DNA from: Amphiura filiformis
Taxonomy: Eukaryota; Echinodermata; Ophiuroidea; Amphilepidida; Amphiuridae
Reading direction: 5' to 3'
Length of the DNA stretch: 64,000 nucleotides
NCBI RefSeq assembly: GCF_039555335.1
Contig: NC_092647.1
Span: forward strand, 6,772,608 to 6,836,607
Shown here in pieces: positions 7,055 through 64,000 of the stretch. Both the position numbers and the translations under genes were made by a program. Numbering within the stretch: position 1 is the first letter of the stretch; each line of letters starts with the position of its first letter. The notes under the pieces were generated by a model that saw only the letters and a list, made by a program, of their open reading frames with translations, did not search any database and was not told the origin of the DNA.

Positions 7055-7184
7055 TAACCTCTGAAATTCAGTCAAGTAATAGGCTTCCATGCATGCACGT
7101 AAAGGTAGAAATAAATCAGAATATCGAGCTACCCACATTTATGAAAAGGCTTATTCTATTTTCATTTGTTTGCATAGGATACTA

Positions 7185-38537: not shown

Positions 38538-38569
38538 GGAAGCCTATACTGAGTTTCGATAGTGGTAAC

Positions 38570-39825: not shown

Positions 39826-40277
39826 CCGGGGGTGGGGGCACAAGTAGCGTTTCAAGTTGATTCATCCACGTGCAAGAAAGCAAGTAAAAAGGGTATTGTT
39901 TTTCATGGCCAGACGGATATGCAAGTATCTTGTTTAGGGTATCAGAAACAGCAAAAAATTGATACCTTAATTGCACAGGTGTTTCTCAAGGGTAGAGCTG
40001 ACTTTGGCACCAAGATGCCAACAAAAATCAGTTGAAAAGAAAGTAAACTTCAATTGTACTCAAAAACTCCTCAAATCGTGTGTTTTCTCATTGGTTTTTC
40101 TTCAGGCATCTTGACTGATCTCTACCGGCGATTTTAGGTGTGATCATAGCAACTCATAACAGTAAAATGCTTTCTTAGGGTAGGAAAACAACTGCATAGT
40201 ACTTGCTTTGGGTCCATTTTAGACGACTGAAAAATACTTGCTTATACAACTTGAAATACAAGTGGCCCCCTGGGTCT
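39826..40277. mobile_element. MITE-like inverted-repeat element, about 450 bp
   Basis: CCCGGGGGTGGGGGCAC..TTTCAAGTTG at the left pairs with CAACTTGAAATACAAGTGGCCCCCTGGG at the right. No clear target duplication is seen. An open frame inside is not convincing. Confidence 0.55.
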
Positions 40278-40485
40278 TGATTGCCTCAGGTTACAATTCT
40301 TTTCCTCATCCAAAATGCACCTATAAGGTCAGAAATCCAGCGAAATGTTCAGTTATTCTGATGTTAGTTTAACCGTGTTTATTTCTCTGATTATGAAGAG
40401 GTGCTGAATATAATTCTAGAATGTCTTCTCACCCGCATACACTGCTTAGCATGTGCAGGTATAGGTACATGTAATGTGTGTGCAG

Positions 40486-40592
40486 CACCTCGTGGCTCAG
40501 AAGTCGCGTTACCTGCTGGGCCAGAGACGTACAACCCTGTACACATAAGTGCCAGAGCTGCATTCAATCCTAAGTTTCAGGATTATGCATAG
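40486..40592 (+). CDS. Possible orphan terminal exon
   Basis: After an acceptor-like TGTGTGCAG, a frame codes about 35 residues rich in protein-like composition (ALPAGPETYNPVHISARAAF, NPKFQDYA) and stops. I do not recognise it and found no partner exon nearby. It could be the last exon of an unseen gene, a processed fragment, or chance. Confidence 0.2.
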
Positions 40593-43564
40593 TACATAGT
40601 GGCTGGAAAGCCTTTGCGATAATTCTCAACACATTGAGGTATAGCTAGACTTCTCCGTAGTCCACTTGTCATTGTGCATACTCAGTATTACCTTTGCATT
40701 TAAAACTCCGATTGTGTGCACAATTGATAGATTTTCCTGATCTGTTCAGTCACCGTACGCCCTCTGTTAGCTTGATACCCAAGTGAATTTTTCTCGGGGA
40801 CAGCAGTTAGTAACGTGAGCAATTCTCCAAAATAAAACAGACTGCTGGAAAATCACTGGTAGGCATGAAGGGAGCCCTCTTTCAAAAACTATTAAAAAAC
40901 ACCATTTTTATTGGTTAAAGTAAGGCAGGACACAAATCACTTAAGAATGCCTATATAGGGCATCTAGATTTGTGGTACACGATATTGAGACTATTTATTA
41001 CATTATAATATCGAGATTAATAACATAGGCCTAGGCCTATTTCTAAATTTATCAAAATTCGACTATGGCATAGTCTAAGGTATAGCATGTAAGACAGAAG
41101 AGGTTCAATTTCCTTTCTTCAAATGGATGTGATATTGAAAATTTGTTTTTGCTTGGGACCAAACACAGCAAATAATGCAACATGGGTCCCATCACAGGAA
41201 ACGCTCTCCAGATTCATGTAGCTATGAAAACATGCTGCATGTATCATAGGTATAGTCAGTATTCCCAGATATATTTGTCAATCTCAGGTAAACTAATCTC
41301 AACTGCTGTGTGCATTCAGCCTCTCATTCTATTAAGCCATGTTTATGTATTAACATGTTTTCTAAATACATGTATCACAGGGGGGGGGGTCATAGTGCAA
41401 ATGAGGATACAGGGATATGTGGCAGACACAGGTGCATTTTCAGCCATTTAGTTTGGTTTATTGATGGCCCTCAATTTCATGAAAATTTGGTTTAAGAAAG
41501 GGTGGTTTTTTTTCAAAATTTTCTCAAAAAAGTAAATTTTTCAGGAAAATTATCAAAAATTTCCCCAAAATTGGTATAATTTTGGGTCTGTTTTTCATCA
41601 AATTTGGTTTAAAGTCGGGTAGTTTTTCAGATTCCCAGCCACACAATCCACATCCCCGCCCAACCAAAGTTGAGAACCCCCAGGTATATCATAATTATGT
41701 ATAATTAACTTGGATACAAAGGTTTACATATTGTTTCTTTAACATGTTTAAAATGTGATCATGTTCCAAGATATTGTACACGAAAGGTTATTTCTTCGGT
41801 CGCAACACAGTGGCATAATGTGCAGGGCAAATGCAAATATGTTTCCGAGAAAAACATGTTTGAAAGATATGCTACTTATAATAACAGAATCGGTACTCTT
41901 CCACTATTATCTCTCAGTGGGCCAATTCCATTGGAAATTGAAGTATAAAGTTTAAATTATCAAACTGTGACTTTAATAGTTAAAATGGAATAGCTTTAAC
42001 TCTAAACCTATACGTCACTATGTGAAATGGAAGATTGGGGTTTGGGCCTGTTTTTGAAGCTTAGGTCGCATGTACGACATGTGAAATGGAGCATATCGAA
42101 CTTTGTGTCTTTTTGTACCTTGCACCACTGTGGCCACATCATCCATCATGTAAAACTGGTTTACATGATGTTTAAAAACGTTGGACCAAATTTCATAAAA
42201 ATTACCAAAATCATTCTACACCACTATGTGTTGCGATCAATGATTTGATACATATACTGGACTAACTGGTTTTAAAATATTGGATGAGACATTGTCAAGT
42301 CCAATATTTTAAAACTTGTAGCTCAACCAATTAATATGGGCTCAATCGATCCAATTTGATATCAACATATCAGTGTGTGCACATTGATTTTCAAGGGGCT
42401 GTGCAGTAATTGAAGGGGGTAATGAGGGATGTTGGTGAGCCAAAAAGAAGGGGAAAGCCATGTATGTCAGTAATGGGCAAGCAATTTTTGGCACGCATTT
42501 ATATGGGGTACCTTTTCAATATTATGCACTAAAACGAGTAGAAAAACAGTGAGGGGGGGGTAAGTAATTATTAGCATACCAGGCAAGAGGGGCATGAAAT
42601 GTTATGCTCCTATGGCTCGTGTTTGCACAGCCCCTAATTTCTTTATATCTAATTTTTGGCAGATGGGTTTTCATTTTATAATGTAGTCATATTCACAAAA
42701 TTATGTGTTCCATTATATTTATTATAGTTTTCTACTAGGAAAGTATACTATATTTTGTGTAACTATTTATGGGTGAACTTTTATGGCTGCAATACATATA
42801 ATATATATGGGTGTATGAAATACAAAGTAGGTATTCATATCGTGAGGTGCAAATTATAACTTCCATTATGTATAATTAGCATTTTATATGTATCTGGTTG
42901 AAATAATAAAGGATATATCTGGATCATGTAAGATAGTAATGAATTCAGTGATTGATGGTGTTACATTTAAGAGCTAGAAGAAAATACAAGTTAAAAATTA
43001 AAACCTACCAATAGTATACACATACTACATGGTTAGAGGGGAAATAAGGCACTCAAAATCTGTGAAATTAGCATCTTGCATCGTTGATATATGACAATTT
43101 AGGCAAAGTCATGTACTCATGTTTGTCCGCAAAATTGATATCATTTTGTTCAAACTTTGTTATAAAATTCACAGATATTAATGCCACCCCCCCCCCCCAA
43201 AAAAAACTTAAACCCAGCATGTACCCATTTACAAGCGAAAAATAAACACTACACTAAACAGACATTACAAAATAAAATTGATAGGATAGAAGTTTAGGTA
43301 AACATTACTGTAAATCATTCATCAAATAAGTACCATGTACCGTCCATTATCATAATGCAAAGCCCTTAAAGGAAGTGTCCAGTAATCACAACATTATGTC
43401 TGCAGCACAATGCGCAGACTTTGAATTAATGATTCCTTATTTTATTATAAATTAAATTTCTATTTACTTACATACATTGATTTTAAATTAAAGGAAGTGT
43501 CCGGCAATCACAACATTCTGTCTTATATGTTAGAAAAATAATTATCAAGCACAAATCACATGGT
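40593..43564. other. Non-coding stretch
   Basis: No gene is seen. About 41366-41689 (ACAGGGGGGGGGGTCATAG to GAGAACCCCCAGG) looks like a decayed relative of the MITE at 23857. A hairpin at about 42268-42315 (TTTTAAAATATTGGA and TCCAATATTTTAAAA) is perfect over 15 bp. A C-tract lies at 43188-43198. Confidence 0.5.
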
Positions 43565-43912
43565 TTTATTCAAAATCTTGAAATCCACACCAGCATTGTT
43601 ATAATCTTAAAACCCACGCCAGAATTGTCCAAGTCTTGAAACCCACACCAGAATTGTTCGAATCTCAAAACCTATCAAAAAAATCAGACTATTCAAATCT
43701 TGAAACCCACCCTAGAATTGTTCTTGAAACCTACACCAGAAGTGTCCATCCAAATCTTGAAACCTACTCCGCCAGAATTGTCCAAATCTTAAAACCCACA
43801 CCAGAATTGTTCATATCTTGAAATCCACGCCAGAATTGTTCAAACATTGAAACCCACCCTAGAATTGTTCAAATCTTAAAACCCACACCAGAATTGTTCA
43901 AATCTTGCCGTA
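43565..43912. repeat. Minisatellite, unit about 30 bp, 11-12 copies
   Basis: Variants of CCACACCAGAATTGTTCAAATCTTGAAA (read in two halves, CCACACCAGAATTGTTC and AAATCTTGAAAC) repeat about every 30 bp. Imperfect units of 19-34 bp are mixed in. The LINE starts exactly in the last unit. Confidence 0.88.
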
Positions 43913-46350
43913 CAACAGGTACTGCTGGACGTCGCACACTTGAGATGTGTAATGCTCTTGGCCTAACACAATTTCTCAAAGAACCTACCCCGGAAGACCA
44001 GATTCTTGACTTGGTCTTCACTGATCTTGATGCCAGATGCCACCTGCAGAGTACATGCAAGACTAGATACTTCAGACCACGGTCCAGTTCATTTTAAACT
44101 GAATGTGCCGCTGTACAGAGATAAACCCTACAAGCGCAAAGTGTGGCAGTACGACAAGACTGACTACTGGGGAATAAGAGGTTTTCTTGCATCTGCAGAC
44201 TGGTCTCTTGCGCTCCAATCTGATGACCCAGAAGAAGCTTGCAGCAACATTACCACTATAATCAGTGATGCTATGGAGATTTTCATACCAGCAAAGCTCG
44301 TTATCAAGAAGACTGGAGACAAGGTATGGTTTGATGACCACTGCAAACGAGCATCAATCAAGAAGCGCCGATTATTCAGGAAGCTGAAAAATAATAACAC
44401 CAAGGAATGCAAGGATAAGTTTACCAAAGCTAGAAAAGGGTATAATCGTGCAGAGAAGGTAGTCAGAAAGAGCTATAACAGCAAGTTGAGGAAAGATGTC
44501 AATCTCAGCAGCAAGAAATGACAGAACACTATCAACAACCTGTCTGGGAGGTCCACCAGAGTTGATATACCAGTGCTTAAGGGTGGCCGTCAAGTCTACA
44601 CTACATCAAAACACAAAGCTGAAAATGCCTGCCAAACCTTTGCCGCTAAATGTCAGCTTGCCAGCGCAGAAGAATCTGCTCCTGAAGTTCCGCATTCAGC
44701 AACGTGCTCAATTGAAAAGTTAGCTTTCAAGGTCAAAGATGTTAGGAAGATTCTCAGGAATCTCCAACCAGATAATGCTACTGGTCCTGACGAAATCCCT
44801 GCAAGAGTCATGAAGGAGTGCAGCGCAGAACTTATCTTGCAAGACCACTCAGCCTGCTGTTTGAGTTTTGCTTCTCCAAGGGAGTTTTCCCAAGCCAATG
44901 GAAGACTGCATCTGTCATCCCTATTCACAAGAGAGATTCGAAGTCTAATCCATCTATGTACCATCCCATCTCTCTGCTCTGCATCATCAGCAAGGTCATG
45001 GAGGCTGTTGTACAGAGCCAACTTCAGAAGTACCTCCTAGGAAACCAACTGATTTCAGATAGACAGTTTGGATTTAGGCCACACCACAGCACGGCTGACA
45101 TCCTCACCATTCTGACTCAAAGGTGGTCCAACTCCCTGGACAGAGGCAACGAAGTGCGCCTGATTGCCCTGGACATCAAAGGAGCACTTGACAAGGTCTG
45201 GCATAATGGCCTTTGCTCGAAACTCATGGCAAAAGGAGTATCCGGCAAGCTGCTCACCTGGATTAGGAGCTACCTGGGAGATTGTTCCATCAAAGTTGTC
45301 CTATCTGGCCATTCATCACGTACTTCCTCCATCAATGCATCAGTTCCCCAGGGGTCAATATTGGGCCCGCTTTTATTCTCTGTCTTCATTAATGACCTGG
45401 GTGATGAGTGTGCAAATCAGCAAATGATTCCACCTTGTTTTGCGAGATTACATCTCGAGACAACCCTGAGGCTGTTACTGCTAGCCTAAACAGAGACCTG
45501 GAGAAAATGAGGATCTGGGCAGACAGATGGAAGGTGACCTTCGAGCCATCAAAATGTAAGGCAATGACAATATCAAGAAAGAGGCATCCAATCAAGCTAG
45601 ATCTTCTCTTTGGTACCACCAAACTGGCTGAGAAGGAGGAGCTGGAGATCTTGGGAGTCACAGTTGACAGCAAGCTGACCTGGACAAAGCACATCTCCAA
45701 CGTCTCACACAGAGCAGGACAGATGCTGGGCGCTCTGAGGAGAGTTGCAAACAAACTTGACGTGAGAGGCAGAGCAACCGTTTACAAGGCCCAAGATCGC
45801 AGTGTGATGGAATACGCCTCACTGTCTTGGATGAGTGCCAGCGCCACCACTCTAGGATTATTAGACTCTATCCAGAGGAAGGCCCTTCGAATCATAGGTG
45901 TGAGCGAAGAAGAAGCGATTACAAAGCTGAATATCACATCTCTTCATCAAAGACGTCAAGTCGCTGCAGCAACAGTCCTCAACAAAATGCACACCAGCTT
46001 GTACCCACCAGATCTGAAGGTACTGCTACCAAAGCCATCTGTAGTCAGAAGAGCTACCCGCTCCAGCTTGTCCATGCCTTGCCATGCTCTCACAGTACCA
46101 GTTTCTAGAACCATATCTACTGGCAGAACCTTCATCCACACTGCAGTTCACTTTTGGATTAGCCTACCAGATGGAGTAGTCGGAGACGTAACTGACAACG
46201 GCGCACCATCCTTCAAGAGCAGAGTGCATAAGCATCTCCTGTACCCCTTCACTCTTGTTGTTCCTAAGCTGCTGTGAACCACTGATTCGCACTGTCTGTT
46301 ATAGTGCTACTCCTCATGGGCTATTGTTCACTCTAGCATTTTTTTTTTTA
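43913..46350 (+). pseudogene. 5'-truncated CR1/jockey-like LINE ORF2 (endonuclease end and reverse transcriptase)
   Basis: The element begins within the end of an AP-type endonuclease domain (LDLVFTDLDARC). It runs through a linker and a reverse transcriptase with recognisable blocks: PDNATGPDEIPARVMK, ASVIPIHKRDSKSNPSMYHP, ISDRQFGFRPHHST, LDIKGALDKVWHNG, SVPQGSILGPLLFS, and a thumb ending WISLPDGVV. Lesions are a frameshift near 44075, an in-frame TGA at 44519-44521, frameshifts near 44840 and 45410, and a catalytic YADD motif changed to SAND. The last stop is at 46275-46277, followed by a short 3' part ending in a T tract. It cannot encode an active enzyme. Host-type GC-richer codon use contrasts with the AT-rich surroundings. 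Confidence 0.9.
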
Positions 46351-47273
46351 AAGTCTTCTGGAATGGTAAGTTTTTCACTAATCGAACATTGGGGCATTCA
46401 ATGGGGTCCACCACAAATCGTACGTTGATGAGTCCACATTCTCGGGGTTTTTTTTCTCGCAGGTGAAATATCACCGAAAAGGATCCAATAAAATTAGGCT
46501 CTGCAAACTAAATTATTGCCACTGATGTTTTCTACATAAGGATGAAATACAGTTTGATTGAAGGCTTATTAGAAAAGAATTATGGCCTATAATAGCCTCT
46601 CGTTTAAAAAAAAAGGAAGTGAGCAAGTTGTTGGGTTAAAATAACTCGCCGTTTAAAGACTCTGTAATAACAAATCAAGAAAGATCAGATATAATTAAAA
46701 CTACATATATTATGAAACGCTTGAATCTTGATGTATCCAATGTGTCCCTTATATATTTAGCTGTCCAATTTATGTGCAATATTTTGTTATTGTTATTTAC
46801 AGTCATGGACAAAAGTTTGGAATATTTTTATTTTTGTATAAAATTTTTCATTCATATTAGGAACCGGTTTATTGTTCTGGAGTAGTGCTCAGTTGAATTT
46901 AATTGAAAGATACAAATGTCCTTTGATGTTTACATCACACAGTTGGTCACTTAAACAAAGAATTACATGAGGAATGGCATTACAATGGAAGGGTCACACA
47001 ATTGCAATACTTTTTGGCGGCCTCTTTGTATCACAAAATGAGATAAAAGACACAAGCAAACTAAGCCTTTATTGCTTAAACAAAAACGTAAGCTCTCACT
47101 GTGACATGTTCAGATTAGTCTCTTGCTTGAGAAAACACAGCTCAATATTTGGTGTGTCCACCCCTTGCCAGCTCAAGGTCACGTACGCAACGTGGCATTC
47201 CCTCGACCAGGTTTGCCAAGGTTCCTTGTGGAATATCTCGCCAGCAAGCAATGATGAGGGCGTGTCTAAGTTC

Positions 47274-48180
47274 CTACAAGCTGATTGGTTGGTTGTCCAT
47301 GTTACCTAACATCCGGGATACTTCTGCCCATAAGATCTCTATAGGGTTCATATCCGAGCTCAAAGCCGGCCAGTCCAGGCGTTCTACATTCTCATTTTCA
47401 AGGAATTCCCTCACGCGTCGAGCTCTGTGCGCCGTAGTGTTGTCATCTTGGATCACGAAATTGTTCCCAAAGTCTCTTCTTGCAAACGGAAGCATAACTG
47501 TATCAAGAACATGCAGGCATTGGTCCTGGTTCATGCGTCCTTCTAGCATGTAGATGTGTGATTTTGACATTTTGAAATGCTCCCCATACTGTGAGATTGC
47601 CATCACCTCCCTGACCTCCAGGCAGGATACAATCTTCAAGCAGGGCTTGACCAACCTGTCTTCGGACCTTGAATCGGCGACCATGTCTGTAGAGGAGGAA
47701 CCGGGCCTCGTCACTGAAGATCACATTACGCCAGTGGCCTACTATCAAATTCCTGTGTCTCTGTGACCAACGCAAGCGCGCATGCCGGTGTCTTTGCAGA
47801 GGTATCGGCTTTCTTATTGGTCGCTTTGCGCGAAAGCCTGCACTAACCAGTCTATTTTTCACAAGTTTCCTGGTAACAGGCGTGTTTATGGACCTCAGTT
47901 ATTCTGTTCGTAGCTGAGAGGCAGGCTTTGTGCGGCCATTGCGGCAAAGTCTCAGGAGAGATCGGTCTTCCCTGGCGGTTGTCTTTCGAGCCGACCTGAC
48001 CTTGAACTAGGTGTAGCAGTTCTCTTCAAAATTTTAGGAACTGCACCTTGTGTAATTTCTAAAGTGGCACCAATATCCTCCGCTATTACGTATTTCAAAT
48101 CTGCGCTCAACTCGCACCCCATGATCAGAAATATCGTATACAACAGACAGATGCAACAGAGTAAAGCTGGTCTCTTCACA
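47274..48180 (-). pseudogene. Tc1-like DD34E transposase, frameshifted
   Basis: Read from about 48140 to 47274 on the minus strand. A helix-turn-helix-like part (GATLEITQGAVPKILKR) comes first, then a Tc1 linker (RHARLRWSQRHRN). The first catalytic Asp sits in VIFSDEARF, the second in VIQDDNTTAHRA, and Glu in SSDMNPIEILW, 34 residues after the second Asp. All three catalytic acids remain, but the frame is broken at least near 47520 and between about 47870 and 47950. The protein is therefore not made intact. Confidence 0.9.
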
Positions 48181-48354
48181 CGGTAATCGAAAAGCCAATG
48201 TAACCTTTTGAATCATATCGCTAAAATAACTGCAAAAAGGATCCCCGATGGTTCGTTGGTCAGGCATAAGAAGCCATTGTCCTACATTACGTAATGTGTG
48301 ATATGGAATGGTACCTAAGATCTTGCCAGACACCCGTGAGCATGGTGAGGCGCG

Positions 48355-48733
48355 TGAAAGTCGATTCCGAGTTTATCGTCCCCCGCCCGCGTCACTTTTT
48401 GGAAACCAAAAACACCCGCGTCAAATTTTCAAAAATGCCAAAATAATTCATTATTTTAAAGTATCGGTGTTTTCACCAGTTTTTAGCAATTGAAACATAT
48501 ATTTTGTTTGTAAAACATATAAATTCATAACTTGGAAGCAAAACCAGGCTCTTTTCTAACTTTTCTAGTCCCTACCCATATAAAAACCTGTTTATAAATA
48601 ACATGTATGAGTGTGGCTTTAAATCAACACGCATTTTAGGTCAATAATGAAATCTGATGAAATAATGAAAAATGAAAAAGTCACCTCACCAACCCGGGAA
48701 AAAAAGGGACGATAAACTCGGAATTGACTTTCA
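48355..48733. mobile_element. MITE nested in the Tc1-like element, about 379 bp
   Basis: 28-bp inverted ends (48355-48382 and 48706-48733) begin TGAAAGTCGATTCCGAGTTT. They differ at one position. It sits between the transposase start and the right Tc1 end. Its interior has CCCGCCCGCG and AAAACACCCGCG. It dates the Tc1 copy as older than this insertion. Confidence 0.8.
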
Positions 48734-48884
48734 TGGGCCTGATCCATTCTGCATGGCTGACGGATCATTGATGATAAGAAATCTGCACTTAAAAACAGGG
48801 CTATGCAAAAAAATAAAAATATTCCAAACTTTTGTCCATGACTGTATTAATTACTGTTTTATCAAATTAATTTTTAGTGCTTCT

Positions 48885-49369
48885 GTGGTGTGTGTGTGGG
48901 GGGGGGGGGTGTTTGTAGAGGGCCGATAGTTTGGGTGGGGGTGTATGTAAGGTGTGTGTGGAGATGTATTGTAGGTGGGTGTGAGCTGTATGAGTATGAG
49001 TGTAAGATTTTGCCTCAGCAAGTGCAATTAATTTCTTTGAGCAATTTTATTGTGATTTTATGTATATTTTATATGTTTTATGTCTTTTAATGTAAACAAT
49101 GCAAATGTAATATTTCAGGTAATATGGTCTATGGGTCACGAATTCGACTCTGAATCTGAATCCGAATCTGAATCTGAATCTAAGCTACAGGCCCGGGCTA
49201 CTTGTCTACATACTTCCGACCAATGTAAAGGCAACTCCATAAACCACAACTCTACAACTATTCTTTCTTTCCTTCCTTCATTCCGTCCTTCCTTCTGTTA
49301 CTTATGTTTTTTCAACAACAAAAATAACATCATCAACAAGAAATGAAATAATAATATCAATAATACGCT

Positions 49370-49435
<66 letters not shown>

Positions 49436-49436
49436 T
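48885..49436. repeat. Microsatellites: GT/GGGGTGT, GAATCT and TAA
   Basis: A GTGT/GGGG-rich tract lies at 48888-48985. A hexamer (GAATCT) array of six units lies at 49141-49180. A pure TAA run of about 22 units lies at about 49370-49435. Confidence 0.9.
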
Positions 49437-51597
49437 TGCATTATTGTCAATTTGAATTTACATAATAACATTATTATGTTCATGTTCATTGAACTCATTT
49501 TGTGTTCATTCAACTATTAATTCCGTTAGTACATAAACAATTTGGTGTACTGCTGCCGATTCCTTTTCATTTCAACTATAACATGAGTGATACAGTATCC
49601 AATGTACATGTACTTGGAGGAAACACGGCAATTCATTAAGCGGTAAGTAAAATACTTATTGGTCTAATAGTGAAACTTACGATTTAGAAATATGGGACAC
49701 ATACTACAATAAGCACTACTACATTTTGATAATCATAGCCTACAAAAACCAATACCATTGTTCTAAATTATCACAAATGAAGCTGTAGACTATGCACGCA
49801 CAAGTTGTTGACACTTCAGTTACGTTTTGATGTGTAAGAGTGGTCTAATATATATTTATACTTACTCAGAGGCAATTAATCAACAGACGGATTTGATGTG
49901 CATTTTATAGTAATCCATGAATTTTTCATTTTTGACCCCTGTATTAAATATAGGTGGTCATGGAGAAAGAGTTCAATCCCCATTGAACTTTATGGAGCTT
50001 GACTTATTTTGCGAACAAAAGATCCTCGATGATGCAAACTATTCTTTGTATGAATTGTTTTTTACAAGAGGAACCAATTTGAGACAATAGGTTTCGACCC
50101 CTGTAGAATGCAAAAATTCGACATTATACCTTTTTTTGCTAATAAACTCAAGGACCGTACATTACAGATAGGTCAAACTATACTTTTTCTGAATCCTTAT
50201 GAGCTCTAATGGCAAGAGGAATACTACTATTTAATACATTAGAATGGGTTTCAACAATATATGAAATTTGTATATTGAGTTTGATGACCTTTTTTCTTTT
50301 TTTATTTCGCATGGGTTAATTTTTTATACAATTATTTCATACAGAAACAAAGTAGAAAATGCATTGCGAAAACAGAAATTAGGTTGCAATTTTTTTACCT
50401 ATTTAGATACTAGCCCATATTAACTCAGTTTAGCAGAAAACCTATAATTTGGGATATTGCAATACTTCATGGCATGTGTGTGTAGTTTTTAAACTTGCCT
50501 GTTAAAATATGGTAAGGAAATAAAACGAAACTAAAATATATATTTGGAAGTTTGATAGCAGACCAAGTGACACGTACAGCATGGATCAGTAAATCATTAT
50601 AAACATGACTAAAATGAATTCACTGAGTTGAATCTATCAATCATAACAAAACACAATTATACTCATTACACTGTATACAGGCTGTATCAAAATGATTGGT
50701 ACTCATCAGTTTTGGGTGTTTATTGAAAAGCCTGCTTCTTCAATATGCAACACTATATCCTCTTGATCCTAAGTTTTATGACCTTTTATATCATCTATCT
50801 ATAAATAAGCTAGCTCGTATGTTGCATTTTGATGTGGTAAACATCGTCCACACCAGGTAAATATTTTGACAGGCAGTAAACGAACTAATAGAAATACGAA
50901 ATGCAGCGAAGCACGTGTGCCCGCCAGCTGCATGAGAGTAGCTGCTATTACAAAATAAGCTGAATTTTATACTCCGCGCTCTGTGAGGGAATGTTTAAAA
51001 CCAATCATGGGCTAAAACCCAATCGCTAATAGCTCAGCGATATAATAGATTCAGCTATGAGTTGTCTTTCAAAATATCCAGGCTAAATCCTAATGTTGAA
51101 CGTCGTGTTTCTCAATGTCTGTACAGAATTGAAAACTCAGTGACAGAATAAGAACACATTGCTCAAGCACATAGTTGCATTGAGTTAAATTGAGTGACCG
51201 CCACTTGAGATTATTTCTGGTATTTATTCCTAGCTGTAACAAAAAACAGTGAAAAAATGACTGCATTATATTTTTGGTGGTGTATATTCTTTTGATATTC
51301 AATGAATGATTATATCTCAAATCTTTGAATATATCCCGTTATTGTTGGTATTTGTTAAAATCTATTGCTTGATTTGCAGTTGAATATATGTGTTGAAGGA
51401 ATATGGTAAGCTCCTGTCTGTGGTTTGAACTTCCAATCTGTGCTTTGAAAACAAAAACTGACAAAAATCATATTTCCTTAACGTGGTAACGTTGAAGATG
51501 CGTACTTAGCTTGCGCAGATCGTAAAAAGGAGTCATTTCAGCTGATGAATAGCAGCAGTGGGAAAGAAAATCTATATATCGTACAGGTGGTGTGCTC
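49437..51597. other. Non-coding stretch
   Basis: No gene is seen. The phrase GATAGGTCAAACTATACTTTTTCTGA near 50168-50193 recurs inverted near 61185-61212, next to the hammerhead-like motif there. Otherwise it is ordinary AT-rich sequence. Confidence 0.5.
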
Positions 51598-51775
51598 TTT
51601 TTATAGCCTCAGTCGCTTGGCCTATCTCGAAACTATATTAAACACGGCGGAACAAAATTGCCGCTGTGTGACTGCTGAAGAACTAGTGGATGCGAATATA
51701 AACTATCATGGCAATTTCTGATACGAAGATACAGGGATGATAGCTGATGATGACGCTGTGTGATAATCTTATTCA
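51598..51775 (+). repeat. Dispersed repeat, copy 2 (see 19905-20090)
   Basis: Shares ATCTCGAAACTATATTAAACA, CGGAACAAAATTGCC and ATGGCAATTTCTG..GAAGATAC with copy 1, in the same order. Confidence 0.6.
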
Positions 51776-52080
51776 TAATCAGTGATGGGTGCCAACTGCC
51801 TATCATTTTGATACAGCATGTATACGTATACTGCTTACAATGCATATCTGCTGGTTCAATATCTAAATCATAATTAACATATTATAACGTAGGGGATTGT
51901 TGGAAAATGCTGGAACTGGTGATTCCATTAATAATATAACGATATATTCCAGTAACAGGTCATTCTATGTTAAAATAAGACTTATATATTTATTTAATAA
52001 TCACACAAATAGGTACGGGGCAACCTACAGTACTTTGCTGCAAACTCCCTGCATTTGCGTTCTTGTTTTCTGCTGACAAG

Positions 52081-52300
52081 GGGGCAGTCTTTAGGGTTTT
52101 TATTCAGAGCCACCAAACCTTTTACAATAGCAGATAGGCGAGGTCTGCTTGTTCTCTGTTGACAAGGGACAGTCTTCAGTGAACGGCTCTTTTCAGAGCC
52201 ACCAAACTTTGAAAATCAGCAGATAGGCAAGATCTGCCTGTACTCTGTTGACAAGAGACAGTCTCTAGTGAACGGCTCTTTTCAGAGCCACCAGTAGGCA
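52081..52300 (+). repeat. 89-bp tandem repeat carrying histone-mRNA-type stem-loops
   Basis: GGCTCTTTTCAGAGCCACCA occurs at 52185 and 52274, exactly 89 bp apart. The 16-nt hairpin plus ACC tail is identical to the histone mRNA 3'-end stem-loop consensus. A third unit near 52095 is degenerate (GGTTTTTATTCAGAGCCACC) but can still pair through G-U wobbles. Units share GTTGACAAGRGACAGTCT and CAGCAGATAGGC. No histone coding sequence is nearby. Confidence 0.85.
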
Positions 52301-52479
52301 AGGGGCGGCCTACATGTCTCATTCTTAGGTACTTTGTCCTGAAGAAGTCAGAGCTACTCCTGACGAAAGCTTGATAGTTCTAAACTTGTTCGACGGCGAA
52401 CCCGCTAAAACTTACCAATTATGAACTCCCGTCGTAAAAGCCTATCCCACAATAAGACATAACAACGAAACTATTGCTG

Positions 52480-52765
52480 ACTGTTCTGTCATATAGTTGT
52501 TGCTGACGAATCTCGCCGCTTGTCTTTGGATAGCTTCAATCCTGTTCACCTTGGTTTACGTCAGATGACCAGGAGGAAATATTTCTTCTAAGGATGACCA
52601 GTGTGCTCCGAGCACTGGAGGTGATGCTTTGTATGTGCTGTTCCCAGTTCATGTTTCTCTTGTATTTACCTTGGATTTCTATGTGGTGGTCATCAACTTT
52701 ATAAATTCCGTGGTTTTTCTTGCGAGTGAGTTTTTGACATTTGGGGGCGTTGAAAGATATTTGAC
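52480..52765 (-). pseudogene. CR1-like LINE reverse transcriptase fragment
   Basis: On the minus strand, FNAPKCQKLTRKKN, NMNWEQHIQSITSSARSTL, LRRNISSWSSDV and then, in another frame, RIEAIQRQAARFVSNNY follow the usual order of the thumb region of CR1-type RTs (K-C, W-x2-H, L-R-R-N, QR-x-AARF). It carries frameshifts and an internal deletion. It is a different family from the LINE at 43.9 kb. Confidence 0.75.
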
Positions 52766-52799
52766 TGCGCGGTGCATATGTCTTCTTGGAGTTGGTTTA

Positions 52800-54220
52800 A
52801 TCGAATGACTCCCATTCACGGGAGTGACGTGTTCAGCATCCCAAAATACTACCAAAAATAATCCTTACACTATAAGCTTTCAGACAGCTGCATGCAGATG
52901 CGCATGCACTATGATTTTTCTCCTATTTTACGAAAAAAATATTTAAGGTTAGTAAGTATTTTAAACTGTTGCGATTTGGTAGTGAGCGTTGTCAAAAATG
53001 CAATAAACATATCATAGCGAGCGTGTAGAAGAATTAGAATATCACAGATATACCTTTGTAGGTCCTATATGTGGTTCTTGAGTTATGATGTAAATAGAGC
53101 TGAAACAACATCACCTTTGTAAAACGTACATAACTCATTAAAGGGCAGGTCTATTGCAAAAACAACATCATATCATTGGCAAGCTATTATTATGAGGACA
53201 ATGAAAATGACTCCTTTTTTGAGAAAATAAGACGTTTAAAATTGATATTCCGCAAAAACCAACTTAAGCGATAAGTTCCTTAGAACGAGACAGATTTGAC
53301 CTAGAAAAAATTGACGTCATGAAATGACTGTGCCTGCTTTGCGAGAAGGGATTATAAAGATTCTCAATGCACAGAACGTATACTGTTGTTGTTCACAGAA
53401 AAAACCCATCTAAATTAAGTATTACAAATTTAATGGTCTTTAAACATATGCATAAAATCAGCTGCTTTTTTAAAAATATATATTAGTAAATTGTGATATT
53501 ACAATTCATATGTATATCAATATCATGAGAAATATTAGAACTAAAAATGAATAAATAATTTGAGCTTAGAATTTCATCGTGATCAATCTAAGACTAGCAT
53601 ATAAACCGTGTTAAGTCCACAAACTCATGTATCTGATTTCCCTGTGCTATATTTATTATAGTTTCAGTTGGATGAAATATTACAAAGCAAACGCATAGTA
53701 GCAATACTGTGTGCGCTTTGTTTACGAAATGAGAACAATAGTCTGCATATTGTTATGCAGCATTGTCATGGTAAATAATACAATGTAGTACAACTCATTG
53801 TTGCTAGTGTCAAACTTGTCACACAAGTAAATGAGAGCATGATATATTATTTGCTTCATTTACTTACGTCATAGCCCGCTGCCTTGAAAATTAATTTTGC
53901 TTCAAACGGGGGAGAACACGTACGAGCCCGAATTTTACCCACACAATTTCTCTTTTTTAAGGAGAAATACGCATAAAAAAATTGCAACGAGTGTCAACTT
54001 GTAAAGTAATAATTATTCTCTTCGAATAGAGATAAACTTGTTTTTGCAATCGACCTGACCTTTAACATCAATAAATCAAGCAAGTTGTCAAAGTATATGA
54101 TTTGTAGAATGAACTTCTGCAAAACATCAAGTGTTATTTTTCAATAATATATTGATTTAGATAATGAAAATCGATCTTTAAGGTGCCTCTATATTTTGAC
54201 AGAACACCGAGTCGATCAAC
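52800..54220. other. 5' flank of the ion-channel gene
   Basis: No exon is supportable. AT-rich. A promoter or a UTR exon for the channel probably lies here, but I cannot place it. Confidence 0.4.
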
Positions 54221-55268
54221 ATGAGTATGTTCAACATGAGTAAGAGAAAGCAGCAACTTACAGCAACATCCGAAACTAATTTTACAGAGATTATAGCTGG
54301 AATCCGGAGGGTTGAAAAGACGTTAAAGTTCATAGAAATCAATGGACGCAGCTCCGTTTCAGAAGTGAGGCATACACCCAGGGCAGACGAGCAGCAGGTA
54401 AAGATGATGGTATGTGTGCATGGGGAAAACCCAGTACAGCCCTGGTACAGCCCGCTACCGGGAGTTGCTTTATTTCCGGTAGCGTGACTGTACCGGTAAT
54501 ATAAAGGCCACAAGCCCGGCAGAGCTTAAAACCAGCAAACCATGTCTCGGACAAACAACATCTAGCAATCAACATACTAAGTTCACAAACCCTAAGACAA
54601 TATCAGGAACTAAAAAACTACTCCATTTACAAACCACGTCCACAACAGTAAATTAATATAATTAACATTTAGCAATCCAGGGGTCAAGCAAAAGCAATGA
54701 CCCAGCTCCGCATAAGGAGCAAACCAAACACACACACACACACAGAGCTGAGTCCCCTGACTTCCATAGTAAAGTCTTGCAACTGATAGAGTTCCAGTAT
54801 ATTAAAGCCCCGCAGGGCATGAAAGCAAGTGTAAATAATACAAATTTATGACACCACAGAATATATCAATGAGTAAATTGTTAAGTTAAAGCATCCCGGG
54901 GGTGTGGTGGAGAGGGAGACTGGACATTTTTAAGGTAAACCACAAAAAGCAATTTATGTACAGCACAGGTACAGCCCTACTCCCGGAAGTAAAGCAAATT
55001 CCGGTAGGTATGTTTATTTCATTTCCTCTTCCTCTCCTCTCCTCTCCTCTTCTCCTTCAGGTTAAAGTTCGAATTCGATGCAGTGTTATTCAAGTAGGGG
55101 ACATTGACACAGTAAAACGGGAATTTACGGCAGAAATCTATCTCGGAGTCAGATGGAAAGAACCAAATGTAAAAGAAAAACAAGTCGAGGTAATGATTGC
55201 ACAATGAAAGAGAAGTATAATATCTCCCTTTAGTTCAACACTTTTCAGTAATTTTACCAAGATGATGA

Positions 55269-55308
<40 letters not shown>

Positions 55309-55345
55309 ATTACGACGACAACGATGATATAATGGTATAATAATT

Positions 55346-55377
<32 letters not shown>

Positions 55378-58300
55378 ATAATGGTATAATAATTCAAGAC
55401 ATTCTCTAGCTAAATTGTATATATGTTACAAATCGTGAACACCTAATTTTGTTTATATGATACATTTTAAGGCATGCGCAATAGAAAGATTAAAATGTAA
55501 ATATATTACATTTTAAGAAAAATCAGACTTCTGCGCATTTCACTGAAGTGATGATGATGCTTATTTTGTATATTTAGCACGGCAGTAATTAGCGCCCTCT
55601 GTGTTACATTAATGGTGCTGTTGGCCAATTTTATACATTAAGGTTACTGTTGGTCAATGTTACATTAAGGTTAGGGTTAGGGATAGTGGATTAGGGTTAG
55701 GATTAGTGAGTTAGGGTTAGGGTTAGGGTTAGTGTTAGGGTTAGGGTTAGGGTTAGTGTTAGGGTTAGGGTTAGGGTTAGGGGTTAGGGTTAGGGTTAGG
55801 GGTTAGGGTAGGGTTCGGGTTAGGTAGGTTAGGGTTAGGGTTAGGGTTAGGGTTAGGGTTAGGGTTAGGGTTAGGGTTAGGGTTAGGTTAGGGGTTAGGT
55901 TAGGTGGTTAGGGTTAGGTTAGGGTTAGGGGTTAGGGTTAGGGTTAGGGTTAGGTGGTTAGGGTTAGGGTTAGGGTTAGGGTTAGGGTTAGTGTTAGGGT
56001 TAGGATTAGGGATAGGGTAAGGGGATTAGGATTAGGGTTAGGGTTAGGATAACCTTAAGGGTGACGGGCTGTCTCTACTAGGTGACGGGCTGTCGATAGC
56101 GAAAATCACTTCCTACTTATTTTACATTTTTACCCCGTAATTTCCCTCATTCTTCAGGCCCTGCCCTCTATCGGTGGCTAATTTACAGTTTAAGCTTGTT
56201 TGCTATTGTATTGGGAGCAACATTGTTTCTTTATAGGCCTGCGGCGCAACCTTGAACAATATTGTCCTCCTAACCCTAACCCCCTAACCCTAACCCTAAC
56301 ACTAACCCTAACCCTAACCCACTAACCCTAACCACTAATCCTAACCCTAATCCACTATCCCTAACCCTAACCTTAATGTAACATTGACCAACAGTAACCT
56401 TAATGTATAAAATTGGCCAACAGCAACATTAATGTAACACAGAGGGCGCTAATTACTGCCGTGCTAAATATACAAAATAAGCATCATCATCACTTCAGTG
56501 AAATGCGCAGAAGTCGGATTTTTCTTAAAATGTACTATATTTACATTTTAATCTTTCTATTGCGCATGCCTTAAAATGTATCATATAAACAAAATTAGGT
56601 GTTCACGATTTGTAACATATATACAATTTACCTAGAGAATGACTTGGATGATTACGACGACAACGATGATATAATGGTATAATAATTATGATGATGATGA
56701 TGATTGAATATGGAGATAACGGCAAATATACTGAAGTTTATAGTTCGCTATATTAAATTCTTACATGCAGGAGATTGACTGGAATGAGCAATGGGAACCC
56801 AGAATTTACTTCTTCAATTTAGTCCGCAAAGATAAGATCCAGACATCTCACGAAATCATTAAACCAGATGATGGAGGTGCTAATACTAGTAATAGTGTAC
56901 CTGATGTCAAGATGGGAATACGGATGAAAGCTACATTCAAATGTGATATGGATCTTAGAGACTTTCCTTTTGATTGTCAGGTAAAAACCCCTACACATAA
57001 ATTGACAGTGTTTTTGTCCAATACACCTCTGGGTGCAACCTCTGGGTGTAAACTGCGAAAAATTGTTAGTTTTATTCAATTAAGTATAACTCGGGTTTAG
57101 TAAAGCAAATACAACAATTCTTTTTTCTTAATTTAGACGTTCAGAATCTGCTCTTTTGAATGATATTTTCATTTACAGCGGAATCCTAGATTTCGTAAAA
57201 AAGCACCACAAATATATGAGTTTACTTCTTTTTGAATTACCTTGCATTCAGAATGCAATTTTGTGTGTCTGATGTGCTCTCAGGTCCAACAAACAATACT
57301 GTGCAAACGTCGCTATCCAAGCCCTTAAAGAACATTTCATATTCCGGTTTTGTTCGTCGCGGCATTAAAATATTCCAAAATTAAATTTTCCAACGGTACT
57401 TCAACTTTCATTCAGAGACACCCTGTACACCGGGCTGTACACGGGCCTGCTGTACATGATTAATCATTTTGTTATAAAAATGTGCGCGGGGTTTCTATCA
57501 GACAAGTAGAATTCAGTTGCAATAAACAATAACTGCTTTTATGTGACTTGCTACTACGAAATGAGCATAAAGTCGCAAGTTGGTAGTTTCGAGACGTCCT
57601 GACTGCTGCGTTGGTGTTCTTTGTTTCACACGCACCTGTTCAAGCCAATAGTATGTCTCTTTGTCCATTGTGAACAGTAGACTTCGGTTATATATATAAA
57701 TGCGCATTTATAAATGCGCACGTGACCAGATGGCCATCGCCATATTTGCATTACATCACTGTCAATCACTGAAATTGCGACCATTGAGGGAGTGGCTACA
57801 ATTGTGACCTTGTTTCGTGGCTAGCTCTGGCAAGGAACATTGGCTGGAGGTTCGATGCTATAAATTTGCAAGGATAAATCATGGATATCGAAGGATCATG
57901 ATTAGATATGATTATTGCACAGCACACCCCCCATGTACAAACATAACTAATTTTTATTTATTTTCTTTCTTTTTTTTTGTATTTTCTCAAATTGCAAATT
58001 ATTTACAGATTTTGGGTTATTTAAAACAAAAACAAAAACAACTAGACTTAGCTGTGGTCTAAGACCACGAACACAGCCGTGTTGTGACCCCTTAATGACC
58101 TTTGACCCTAAAACATATGAAAACCCCATAGACATTGGCTAATGTCAATGCATGTGTGCACGTGGCATCACTTTGCCATGTTATTTGTGGCAGAAGGGCA
58201 TTTTGAAGTTTTTTTTGTCTCAGACCGGAAGTGACCCCTTAATGACCTTTAACCCCAAATAAAAAAATACCACGTATACACTGAGTAACATCAATTCATG

Positions 58301-61300
58301 TGTGAATGTACCGTCTATGTGCTATATTTTTCTTGGCTGATAAAGTTTTTTGAAGTTATTTCGGTTTATACCGGAAGTGACCCTTAAATACCTTTGACCC
58401 CAAATCTGTGTACACCCCATAGACACTGGGTAATAACAATGCATATGTGCAAGTGGCATCACTGTCCTACGTAATTTGTGGGAGAAGATGTATTTTAAAG
58501 GTATTTCGTTTTATACCGGAAATTACCCCTTAATGACCTTTGACCCCAAATAAAAAAATACCATATATACATTGGGTAGACATAATTCATGTGTGAACAT
58601 ACCATCACTCTCCTATATTTTTCTTAGCTAATAGAAATTTTTTCAGGTATTTCGTTTTATACCGGAAGTGACCCCTTAATGACCTTTGACCCCAAATCTG
58701 TGTACACCCCATAGACACTGGGTAATAACAATGCATGTGTGAAAGTGGCGTCTCTGTCCTACATAATTTGTGGAAGAAGATGCATTTTAAAGGTATTTCT
58801 TTTTATACCGGAAGTGACCCTTAATGAGCTTTGACCCCAAATAAAAAAAATACCACATATACATTGGGTGACTGCAGATCATATGTGAACATACCGTTAC
58901 TGTCCCATGTTTACTGAGCTAATAAAAAATTTTGAAGGTTTTTCGTTTTATACCGGAAGTGACCCCTTAATGACCTTTGACCCCAAATCTGTGTACATCT
59001 TATAGACACTGGGTAATTACAATGCATGTGTGCAAGTGGCGTCTCTGTCCTACGTAATTTGTAGGAGAAGGTGCATTTTGAGCTGAAATGACGTTTTTGA
59101 CCCCTGTGACCCCTGCGTGACCTTTGACCCAACAAGTTTCATGTGACATGTAGGGGCACGGTCAATAATCATTGTGACCAAGTTAGGTCAAAATCGATAT
59201 AAGCATGTGAGTGCTAGAGTAAATATAATGGTTGACAGAAGAAAGAAGAAAGAAGAAAGAAGAAAGAAAGAAAGAAAGAACCTGTAAGAAAAAAGACACA
59301 GCCGTGACTAACGTCACGGCTGTGTAAAAAACGACCGACCGACCCTACTTGAAAGGTCCGTCCGCCCGTAGAACAGGGTTTCTTTTTTTCTTCGCCTTAC
59401 TTATAATTTTATAAATATATTTGTTCCCCCTTTCGGCTAGACAAAACCCCACCTCCCCCCTTTTACACTCATAAATTAGTTGTTTTTTGCTAAGTTTCCC
59501 CTTCCGTGTAAAGTAAAACTTTATAAGCCGTTTGAACCAAACTGAACAAAATTGACGTATACATTTACAATATACCATGACAATAATGTGTATGACGATC
59601 TAACTCACCATACGATACTAGCCGAAAATACCATGATTTACATACGTGATTGTACGTCAACTTGTCATATAACGTATGAGTGTGATGTATAGTATACGAG
59701 TCTTCCTCAACATCTTCCAGCTGGGATGATTAGATCATGTACAGTCATCTACGTGTTTATACTCTAAATTGTACGTCAGTAATACTCTAAATTGTACAGA
59801 TTACCGATTTAGCATGGGGGACACAAAAAGGTGCTTAAAAACACATTTGTTTTTTGTCCATTTTGATACTTATTGTGAGCGAGCGAATGAGTAAGTTAGG
59901 GTTGAGGAGGTCAGGCGGGAACATCTAGCCTATTAGTTCGAGAGGGTCATTATTCCGAAAAGGGCTAAAGTTACAGTTTCGTCAATTTACGTTAAAATTA
60001 GAGTTAAAATTAGGGTCAGGGGTATGTTCAGTGGCGGCACTACGGGGGGATACTTATCTTGACTCCCAAATAAATAAATCCATGACCCATTCCTTTCGAA
60101 GAAAATGACAGCCCCCTAAGTTTCCTATCATCACGCGCAAAAATTATCAAATAACATCATCGGCAGCTACTCAGTTCTGACCTTAATGCCAGTAAGAGTC
60201 ACATTTCGTCATCAATATGGCCAATAGTTTTTAAATCAGCTAAATCTAGCTTTTCCGTCATTAATTTTTTTTGTCCGTAATGGAAAATCCAAATAAAGAG
60301 TTTATGTTTCGGATCAAATAATTTTGCACTTTGCAATCAATGCCACTATTTTGCAAACACGATTTTCCTTGTAACCTGTCATTTTCGGCTATACTTTTGC
60401 GTGTGGAATTTATGTACATCCGGGTACCTTACATCGTTGAACACGGTATGGCGACTTGTAGATGTCACGTGCACATTTATAAAAGCGCATTTATATATAT
60501 ACCCGAAGTCCACTGGTGAACCCATTCATTGGACTATTCATAGGTACATGTGCGCGGCAAACATCAACTCAGCAGCCTGGATGTCTCGAAACTACCAACT
60601 TGCGACTTTATTCTCAGTTCGCGGTAGCAGGTCACATATATTTGTTGTCCCTCTCACAGCCCTTAACCATCAAGTTGATGTCAGACTGGACCTCATTGCA
60701 GGTGAAGTTCGTCAAAGATAGAAGCGAAAAAGATTCCATCAGAATAGATACCTTCACAGGTATGTATAGCACAATATAAGATTTTTATTGTGGCGGGATA
60801 GGGCCTCCGGCTCTTTGTGTGTACCAGATTGGAAGGTATGTAAGTCAGATGGTCAGTGTTAACACCAGAACTCCACCTTTAGAGTCTTTTTACAACCAGA
60901 TGTGCATCTAATGTAACGCATTTCTCCCCTCCAATTTCAACAGTAGAATGCTTTATTTATTTCACTGTGCTCTATACAGTCTACCATATATAATATACTA
61001 AGAAGGGGCTAGGGTGCACCCTCGGAAATCAACTTCTAATCGACGTCTATAGATCAGAAAAATGCGTAGAAGACGATAAGTTAATTTAAGCCTGGATGTC
61101 TCGAAACTACCAACTTGCGACTTTATTCTCAGTTCGTGGTAGCAGGTCACATATAGATACAATTTCACAATTGCTTAAAACGATTCAGAAAAAGTATAGT
61201 TTGACCTATCTGCGACCTACCGTTCTTGAGATCATTATGACCATATCAGTCATACCTGATGAAGTCCTCCGATGTGAAGGACGAAATATTGTAGTGAGCA

Positions 61301-64000
61301 AAAATTCACTTGGTTTTGTCAAGCAAAATTGAAATATTTATAATAAGATAGGTCATGGTCAATAGGCCTTATAGGCTGCAGTGGGGCAATAAAAGCATTC
61401 TAGACAGTTCAAACTATTACTTATTTGACTTTTTGACAAAATTGGACCAGTTTTGAACTTTGACCCCTGTATAAACTTTGACCATGGATACCTCGAATGT
61501 CCCAAAGGTAACAATTTTACACCCATCGGAATCTGATTTTGTATCAATCATAGAACATTAACCAACGAAGAAAAAACTGGCAAAACCAACTTACCTTGCT
61601 CTGCTACCGGACTACTTCCCCGGGACTTCCCCCGTCGTGAACAGAAAGTACTCTCTTCTAACGCCGTGAACTGTCTCCCCAACTCCCGGCCCCAACGGTT
61701 TAACAACGTCTCCCCCAACGCCCGGCCCCAACGGTTTAACCGTCGCGGCGTGAACAGAAAGGCTGAGTGAATTGCCGTTTTTTCCACACGTCACGCATGG
61801 ACCAATATTACATAATTACAATCGCGTCATCCAGCAATGAAAATTAAAGGGAAACTACCTAAATAATGTTATATGTTTGCTTGCACTACTAATACTAGGA
61901 TACCGTTTCAATTGTCACCACTTAAGGGGGTACTACACCCCTGCCCAATTGTGCACCTATTTTTGCATTTTTCTCAAAAATTATAGCGCATTGGTGACAA
62001 GTAAGATATGCATATTATAGGGGCAAGGACTACAACTAACAGCACTGGAAATTTTATTTTAACACAGACAACAGTTGTGGAGTTACAGTCAAAAATGAGG
62101 GAAAACCAATATTTGATCAATAAATCAATAACTACTTGCCTTGAGTTGCTAAATTTTCAATGCAGCAGTTGTAGTCCTTGCCCCTATAATATACATAGGC
62201 CTACGTTACTTGTCACCAATGCGCTATAATTTTTGAGAAAAATGCAAAAATAGGCACAAAATTGGCCAGGGGTGTAGTACCCCCTTAACGTCACAGAAAA
62301 CAAAACAAAACACGATTCAAAGGATCAAACCCGGCAATCATATCGCTAATAGGCGGGTGTTCTTTTCTTTTATGTGTATTTAGGTAAACACGAATGGAGC
62401 CTACATAAACACGTAAATGCTAAACCAGAGAAAGAAAAGAAAGAGCAAACTGGTTCACCCAGAGAGTATCCTATGTACCATTTAACCACTCACGTCGAGC
62501 GGAAAAGCGCCTACTACTTGTGGAATGTTGCACTCATTGTGGTAAATATCATTATTTGGATCGGTTGTGTCTTTCCATTTTATGCAGTACATTACGTGGA
62601 CAGTGCCTTAAAAATCGAAGCAGATAGACCAGTGAATAAAACAAAGTCACTGGTCATATATGTTCCAGCGTCATCCTAATTTTTCACCTGTATAGCACAA
62701 TAGGGCTTGGTGCTATTGTGCAAATTGTTTGTGGAGATTATCATCCATCCAGGTAGTAAACAATAATAATATTTGAACTACAATCTAGGCAACTGGACTT
62801 ACGTTTTTGAGTGGGAAATTTTCACGGTCGATCCTGAACGCATCCTCAGCCCTACTGATCTTCTGGCGGTAAACGTTCATTGACCTGTGAAGCGGATGTT
62901 GTTGTATCACAGGTCACCTTGGAGTTCAACCTGAAAGGTATCTTCCTGATCGCTGAACTGTAGGCACCGGCCAAGTTATGACGTAGACCGCCTCCCCTAT
63001 TCAGTAAAGGCTCCTCCCAGTGACTTCCATGGTTTCACGTAAATCGCATCTTTGACTCCTCTCTCATACCATCTGCTTTCTCTGACCAAGATCCTTGTTG
63101 TCAAAGAAGCGATTTACGTGAAACCATGGAATACAGATGATTGAATCCATGTATTTGGCTAATATTAAGGACTGAATATTTTATACAGTTACTGATTGTA
63201 GTGTTGAGTTTCACGTCATTTGCCGTAAGCCCAGACGAACCTGCCAATAGATTAGGCGTCACGCTAACACTTCTTTTGACGGCCGTGGCGTTCAAATTTG
63301 TTGTATCACAGAGTTTGCCAACTATCTCCTACCTTACTATATTGGTAAGTATTCAATAAACATAAGAAGTATGTCTCTTCTTGGTATGTTTAAAATGTTG
63401 GTTTGAGCTTAGTGCGCAAAGTTTGTGCACAATGTCAAAGCGTACGTTATGCAATAGAACCAAATTAGTTTTGACTTTCGATCGACCATTGGTGCTTGGT
63501 CGATCCTTATTATTTATGAAATCAATAATTATTTGGCCATTGTTAATTGTGATTTCATATATGAATCTTTGTATGTAATGATATTGACCAATAAAAAATT
63601 AGTTGATGGTTCATTAATAACAAGCATCGAAGCAGCATCACGGTCGATCCAAAGATCGAACAAATTTGGTTCTGTTGCCAATTTACTATTTTAAACATTG
63701 GGCTTAAAATGATCAGAACACATTATATATACCAATATTTGTTTGCATGGTATGTTATTTTAGAGTCGAGAGTTCCTTCCAAAGAACTTTCATATTTAAC
63801 ATATTACCCATTTCTCCAATTACAGGACAAATACGTGTTATTAGGCCTCGTCATCCAATGTTTGATGGTTGGTCAGAATGCCTTAGCATCTATCTTCTCT
63901 AGCGAACAAGACGCGGCACTTTTTGATCATATTAGTTTGCGTGTGTTCGCAGTTATCATTATTTTCGCACAAATTGTCTTCATAATCGTGGCAATATATA
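54221..64000 (+). CDS. Pentameric ligand-gated ion channel subunit, non-canonical Cys-loop (3'-incomplete)
   Basis: Seven exons (54221-54397, 55061-55189, 56771-56980, 60660-60759, 62384-62541, 63189-63344 and 63826 to the window end) join in frame and give 368 residues. Extracellular-domain signatures are AEIYLGVRW, WEPRIYFFN and CDMDLRDFPFDCQ. Then come pre-M1 (ERKSAYYLWNV), M1, M2 (NRLGVTLTLLLTAVAFKF), the M2-M3 loop (LPTISYLTIL), M3 and the start of M4. The loop keeps FPFD and the first Cys, but the second Cys sits 11 residues on instead of 14; the canonical position is Leu. The M3-M4 linker is only about 12 residues, as in prokaryotic channels, with no large cytoplasmic domain. No signal peptide is visible in exon 1, so the first exon may be missing. 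The ligand and ion preference cannot be told. The frame is intact. Confidence 0.88.
55262..55394. repeat. GCT/GAT microsatellite with internal duplication
   Basis: (GCT)n then (GAT)n at 55268-55303, followed by a GACGACAACGATGATATAATGGTATAATAATT phrase split by a further GAT run and repeated in part at 55371-55394. A stretch of about 55 bp (GATGATTACGACGACAACG onwards) is duplicated on the far side of the next element, at 56647-56702. Confidence 0.85.
55395..56646. mobile_element. Fold-back element containing interstitial telomeric repeats (1.25 kb)
   Basis: The inverted ends CAAGACATTCTCTAG and CTAGAGAATGACTTG start arms of about 300 bp (left to about 55700, right from about 56325). The left arm runs into about 350 bp of TTAGGG-type repeats (55662-56050), the right arm into about 120 bp of CCCTAA (56266-56385). 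A unique spacer of about 210 bp lies between. The element is in intron 2 of the ion-channel gene. The telomeric repeats are degenerate (GTTAGTG, GGGGTTAGG), so this is not a recent telomere. Confidence 0.85.
57513..57730 (-). repeat. Dispersed repeat R3, copy 1
   Basis: The minus strand shares with 60455-60640 the phrases GGTCACGTGC, ATTTATAAA..GCGCATTTATATATATA and a block around TCTCGAAACTACCAACTTGCGAC. The frame RLETTNLRLYAHF is conserved against CLETTNLRLYSQF. The origin is unknown. Confidence 0.7.
59232..59282. repeat. AAGAAAG microsatellite
   Basis: AGAAGAAAGAAGAAAG and AAAGAAAGAAAG units lie between the satellite and the hairpin. Confidence 0.85.
59296..59325. repeat. Perfect 13-bp stem hairpin ACACAGCCGTGAC
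   Basis: Arms 59296-59308 and 59313-59325 with loop TAAC. The same sequence ACACAGCCGTG occurs at the other border of the satellite. Confidence 0.9.
60455..60640 (+). repeat. Dispersed repeat R3, copy 2, ending 19 bp before channel exon 4
   Basis: The inverted counterpart of 57513-57730. It ends at GTAGCAGGTCACATATA (about 60640), immediately before the acceptor of exon 4 (60660). The polypyrimidine tract lies in the short gap. Confidence 0.7.
61090..61330 (+). repeat. Dispersed repeat R3, copy 3 (partial), and hammerhead-like motif
   Basis: 61090-61155 repeats GCCTGGATGTCTCGAAACTACC onwards from copy 2. It continues into sequence containing CTGATGA, a 5-bp stem GTCCT/AGGAC and GAAA (61256-61286). 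Confidence 0.65.
61926..62284. mobile_element. TTAA-flanked MITE family T1, copy 3 (359 bp)
   Basis: TTAA at 61922-61925 and 62285-62288. The ends GGGGGTACTACACCCC and GGGGTGTAGTACCCCC. The asymmetric centre is inverted relative to copies 1 and 2. It lies in channel intron 4, about 100 bp before exon 5. Confidence 0.9.
63026..63130. repeat. Strong hairpin 58 bp upstream of channel exon 6
   Basis: 63026-63047 and 63109-63130 are perfect 22-bp inverted copies (TCCATGGTTTCACGTAAATC..). Pairing extends to 31 bp with one mismatch (GCATCTTTGAC against GTCAAAGAAGC). It may be a small MITE or may influence splicing of exon 6. Confidence 0.8.

Follow-up and report, generated by a model that had tools for sequence, protein, structure and literature searches.

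The window analysed here, a stretch of 64,000 nucleotides, ends in a gene for an apparent animal ligand-gated channel without the normal disulfide of the Cys-loop, which raises the question of whether its prokaryote-like features point to prokaryotic ancestry, to the loss of a cysteine once present, or to a group of channels already described. We suggest, with a probability of roughly 0.8, that the gene is eukaryotic and spliced, comes most likely from an invertebrate, and encodes a pentameric ligand-gated channel (pLGIC) subunit that is Cys-less in the sense of Jaiteh et al. (2016). The gene spans positions 54221-64000 of the plus strand, and its seven exons join across six introns, all GT-AG, into one frame of 368 amino acids, free of stops and frameshifts and still open within M4 where the window ends.

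Exon 1, 54221..54397, plus strand: first ATG; 59 codons with no hydrophobic signal sequence; an unseen exon may precede it.
Exon 2, 55061..55189, plus strand: early ligand-binding domain.
Exon 3, 56771..56980, plus strand: the loop CDMDLRDFPFDCQ at its end (C160, C171).
Exon 4, 60660..60759, plus strand: Leu174 where the canonical second cysteine would be.
Exon 5, 62384..62541, plus strand: last part of the ligand-binding domain, Arg245 ahead of M1 and start of M1 (I257 instead of the usual proline).
Exon 6, 63189..63344, plus strand: remainder of M1, M2 and the M2-M3 loop.
Exon 7, 63826..64000, plus strand: M3, the 13-residue M3-M4 linker and M4; open at the window end.

A sequence-only reading of this DNA had taken the seven spliced exons as the mark of a eukaryotic gene, and the junctions that yield this open frame agree with it, whereas genes for prokaryotic pLGICs are intronless. 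No tandem paralogue was found within the window, where the single match outside the gene's own exons was 16 residues long (E 1.1).

Residues 51-246 match the Pfam ligand-binding domain Neur_chan_LBD (57.6 bits against a cut-off of 26; E 1.6e-15), and the hydrophobic stretches that follow fit the four transmembrane helices M1-M4 of the superfamily, with M4 cut by the window end and the membrane model Neur_chan_memb at 25.3 bits, below its cut-off of 28.1. A phmmer search against PDB chains returned glycine receptor alphaZ1 as the best single-sequence match (65.3 bits) and ELIC at 58.5 bits, with GABA-A receptor chains also present among the best 60 of 300 distinct sequences (E up to 1). Judged as sequence similarity, the PDB and Pfam match to pentameric ligand-gated channels is far beyond chance. 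When a five-row alignment was used for a PDB profile search, GLIC constructs ranked first, a ranking from which nothing is drawn because four of the five rows were bacterial. Beyond its domain order, the protein has the F/YPxD loop with the superfamily's invariant proline (F167, P168, F169, D170), the arginine before M1 (R245) and a proline in the M2-M3 stretch, and both F167-D170 and R245 align with their counterparts.

For comparison, the window protein was aligned with 27 bacterial rows and with three Cys-loop receptors that have PDB chains (nAChR alpha7, GluCl and GlyR). The bacterial rows, mostly picked by Pfam PF02931, came from 34 loci after removal of six duplicates (L002-L007) and of L033, which gave no blastp match; one row (L025), whose frame stops before the membrane part and whose letters beyond the loop are unreliable, was kept among the 27 in column counts and left out of the tree and the charge counts. 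PF02931 was matched in all six genomes reached through the loci, in 11 of the 294 genomes from one phylum and in 7 of the 398 from another. Among plasmids there was a single match, at E 5e-4 and covering 51% of the query, in a Legionella adelaidensis gene annotated 'hypothetical protein'; it supplied one row of the alignment and was also included in the query with which genomes were scanned. Three scans of viral contigs found no relative, and a search of phage records gave no match.

In this alignment the loop CDMDLRDFPFDCQPL reads C160-x10-C171, not the C-x13-C of the metazoan disulfide loop. C160 lies exactly at the first canonical position, as in the three Cys-loop receptors, an additional cysteine, C171, directly follows FPFD, and the second canonical cysteine aligns to Leu174, so that the normal disulfide site is missing, as had been proposed from the letters alone. 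The 27 bacterial rows have no cysteine at any of these three sites (first canonical, C171, second canonical), and the Leu174 column holds leucine in 16 of them, phenylalanine in five, isoleucine in five and methionine in one. The proline of FPFD had been described as kept, and P168 is indeed aligned and present in 27/27 bacterial rows, together with D170 (27/27) and R245 (26/26 with a residue there).

It had been allowed that a different exon might restore C-x13-C, or that an extra exon might lengthen the region between M3 and M4. Neither was found within the window. Candidates for an alternative exon 4 were sought in introns 3 and 4 after an AG, in the right phase and open for at least 25 codons; one of the 54, a number that includes the real exon, has a correctly placed cysteine, and its score of -10 against the real exon means that the two do not resemble each other. 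M3 and M4 share exon 7, and no GT dinucleotide occurs in the 39 bases that encode their linker. The linker FSSEQDAALFDHI is 13 residues long, against about 12 in the earlier estimate, and there is no large cytoplasmic domain of the kind that GlyR, GluCl and nAChR alpha7 carry between these helices; the ligand-binding domain family, the F/YPxD loop and the pre-M1 arginine are shared with those receptors.

The traits called prokaryote-like are found in bacterial pLGICs (the 27 rows, and GLIC and ELIC in the PDB), which likewise have a hydrophobic residue in place of the second loop cysteine, a short M3-M4 linker and a similar M2-M3 sequence; the window protein departs from them in its introns, in its cysteine at the first position and in the loss of the M1 proline. 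That loss was read correctly, M1 14' being I257, but it does not belong among the prokaryote-like features: the proline is kept in every bacterial row that has a residue at this place (26, the remaining one of the 27 being gapped) and in all three Cys-loop receptors. The pore entrance before M2 reads P-A-N-R; with neutral residues at -1' and -2', it gives no indication of ion selectivity. Such an odd entrance, the loss of so constant a proline and the repeats that fill introns 2 and 3 might be expected of a decaying gene copy that no longer functions, a reading compatible with the others discussed here. We consider decay very unlikely, given the 368 codons without stop or frameshift, the six GT-AG introns and the published record, in which the M1 14' proline stands in only 77% of 561 sequences (Jaiteh et al., 2016, PMC4795631); by that figure, the loss is uncommon rather than unique.

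Several repeats and other elements were recorded across the window. Intron 2 contains a foldback element (55387-56654) whose arms, each 322 nt long and 98% complementary to the other, enclose degenerate TTAGGG arrays in both orientations, and intron 3 a tandem array (58084-59079) with units of about 146/291 bp. Upstream of the gene lie tandem 89-bp repeats (52103-52293), in which the histone 3' UTR stem-loop model RF00032 scores 34.9 bits against a gathering threshold of 34, and an array in which a 69-bp unit is repeated about 13 times (36859-37745). Pfam searches, which covered 10 of the 21 open reading frames of at least 120 amino acids, placed a reverse transcriptase fragment at 44791-45486 (RVT_1, 85.9 bits), where retroelement reading frames are scattered over several frames, and a DDE_3 transposase fragment, which we take to be Tc1/mariner-like, on the minus strand at 47277-47720 (39.8 bits), with inverted end repeats seen by eye near 46800 and 48840. 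An open reading frame at 7083-7445 has a weak CHCH match (21.7 bits, below the cut-off of 27.2) and is perhaps an exon of a gene for a CHCH protein.

The absence of the Cys-loop disulfide is not anomalous for an animal channel, since such channels have been in print since 2016 (Jaiteh, Taly and Henin, PMC4795631) and their broad distribution since 2023 (Johnson and others, PMC9874803). The former describes Cys-less channels in invertebrate Metazoa, including one cnidarian and one echinoderm, a group that holds five deuterostome sequences from Branchiostoma and Strongylocentrotus, and secondary cysteine losses in some nematode channels, while the latter reports 182 RefSeq sequences without loop cysteines from taxa that include Echinodermata, Chordata, protostomes, unicellular eukaryotes and bacteria. 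The screen of Jaiteh et al. took sequences with a Pro-loop motif that miss one or both loop cysteines, a description that fits the window protein by virtue of Leu174. As far as these published descriptions go, it shares with the Cys-less Pro-loop receptors the F/YPxD loop, the pre-M1 arginine, the absence of the canonical disulfide and a eukaryotic gene, and such receptors are known in deuterostomes, echinoderms included. It differs from them in retaining the first cysteine, in having its second after FPFD, in the isoleucine at M1 14', and in N and A at M2 -1'/-2', where Johnson (2023) finds an acidic residue to be frequent in Cys-less sequences. The missing acidic residues and the retained C160 are points against a Cys-less assignment, and because C160 occupies the first position and C171 follows FPFD, we do not assign the protein to the strict Cys-less set.

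A tree of 30 rows (26 bacterial, the three Cys-loop receptors and the window protein) bears on origin. In the best tree the window protein adjoins the Cys-loop receptors (76/60.8, not starred), the three receptors share a branch that excludes it (support 92/85, not starred), and the branches of the window protein and nAChR are long. AU tests rejected none of three forced groupings of the window protein: with GluCl and GlyR (p 0.125), with nAChR (p 0.124), and with the 13 rows of the main bacterial group (p 0.226). The tree of these 30 rows is compatible with a separate Cys-less lineage, which it does not demonstrate, and also with secondary loss. Because nothing in the tree is firmly resolved, prokaryotic ancestry is not shown, and of the prokaryote-like character it is the traits that stand. 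Secondary loss would mean that a former true Cys-loop receptor exchanged its second cysteine for leucine and kept the first; the exact position of C160, the glycine receptor as top PDB match, the place beside the three receptors in the best tree and the unrejected groupings with GluCl and GlyR or with nAChR are all consistent with this. We nevertheless judge it unlikely, since those three receptors group without the window protein, the M2-M3 stretch and short linker resemble the bacterial rows, and leucine is the commonest bacterial residue at the second position.

That the host acquired a bacterial channel gene by recent transfer, with introns gained later, is suggested by the loop and linker style shared with the bacterial rows and by the bacterial relatives from the genome scan, which are 22-28% identical over the best segment. 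It is extremely improbable, however, in view of the six introns, of the tree alignment, where identity to any row is at most 24% (316 columns) and the end branch measures 2.41, and of the wide occurrence of Cys-less channels in animals and protists described in PMC4795631 and PMC9874803.

The reading of the gene as a spliced eukaryotic Cys-less channel leaves the start of the protein to be considered, as exon 1 encodes no hydrophobic leader and no signal peptide is visible, unlike in the bacterial channels. No upstream signal-peptide exon in phase 0 with a donor score above 3 was listed between 38000 and 54150. A looser scan listed eight rows, of which those with donors at 52951, 47087 and 44323 are in phase 0; donors 47087 and 47151 lie inside the apparent transposon delimited by eye, donor 44323 lies within a retroelement-like reading frame, and the other rows offer no clear leader. 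The scan, which covered unsplit leaders from 38000 on, thus yielded no convincing leader exon in 38000-54150. An acceptor-like CAG at 54202 leaves room for an upstream exon, and a missed first exon is much more probable than an altered topology.

The M3-M4 linker has a net charge of -2, and none of the 26 bacterial rows is as low (range 0 to +7). Together with the missing signal peptide, this could be taken to place the ligand-binding domain in the cytosol, as a reversed topology or a cytosolic sensor, in which the disulfide would be unneeded, an intracellular ligand could gate the channel from an inner membrane or organelle, and C160 and C171 might form a redox switch. We regard this as highly improbable. 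In the other segments many bacterial rows are as low or lower (pre-M1, 21/26) or as low (M1-M2, 11/26; M2-M3, 17/26), and as only the linker charge stands out, the idea has little to rest on.

By analogy with the family, five subunits would assemble around a pore lined by M2, with a ligand site between subunits in the N-terminal domain. Gating would involve Arg245 together with the FPFD and M2-M3 loops, and movement would reach M2 by way of the FPFD loop and a putative salt bridge between Asp170 and Arg245, without a disulfide, as in the bacterial channels; such an Asp-Arg pair is described for the superfamily in PMC4795631. Packing of the hydrophobic Leu174 may make up for the missing disulfide, and the hydrophobic residue at this place in bacterial channels may do likewise.

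The gene adds a further member to a known, little-studied Cys-less group. According to PMC9874803, planarian homologues, as cited there, occur in mechanosensory neurons, the function of the schistosome channels is unknown, and the ligand and ion selectivity of flatworm Cys-less channels were undetermined in 2023, so new members chiefly help in choosing what to express. Less usual here are the single canonical loop cysteine joined by a new one in FPFDC, the neutral M2 -1'/-2' positions, the net-negative M3-M4 linker and the lack of a visible signal peptide. What the window contributes is a spliced gene for a disulfide-free pentameric channel in which one canonical cysteine remains, the M1 proline is absent and the pore entrance is neutral, and if the missing signal peptide is real, it would raise a genuine question of topology.
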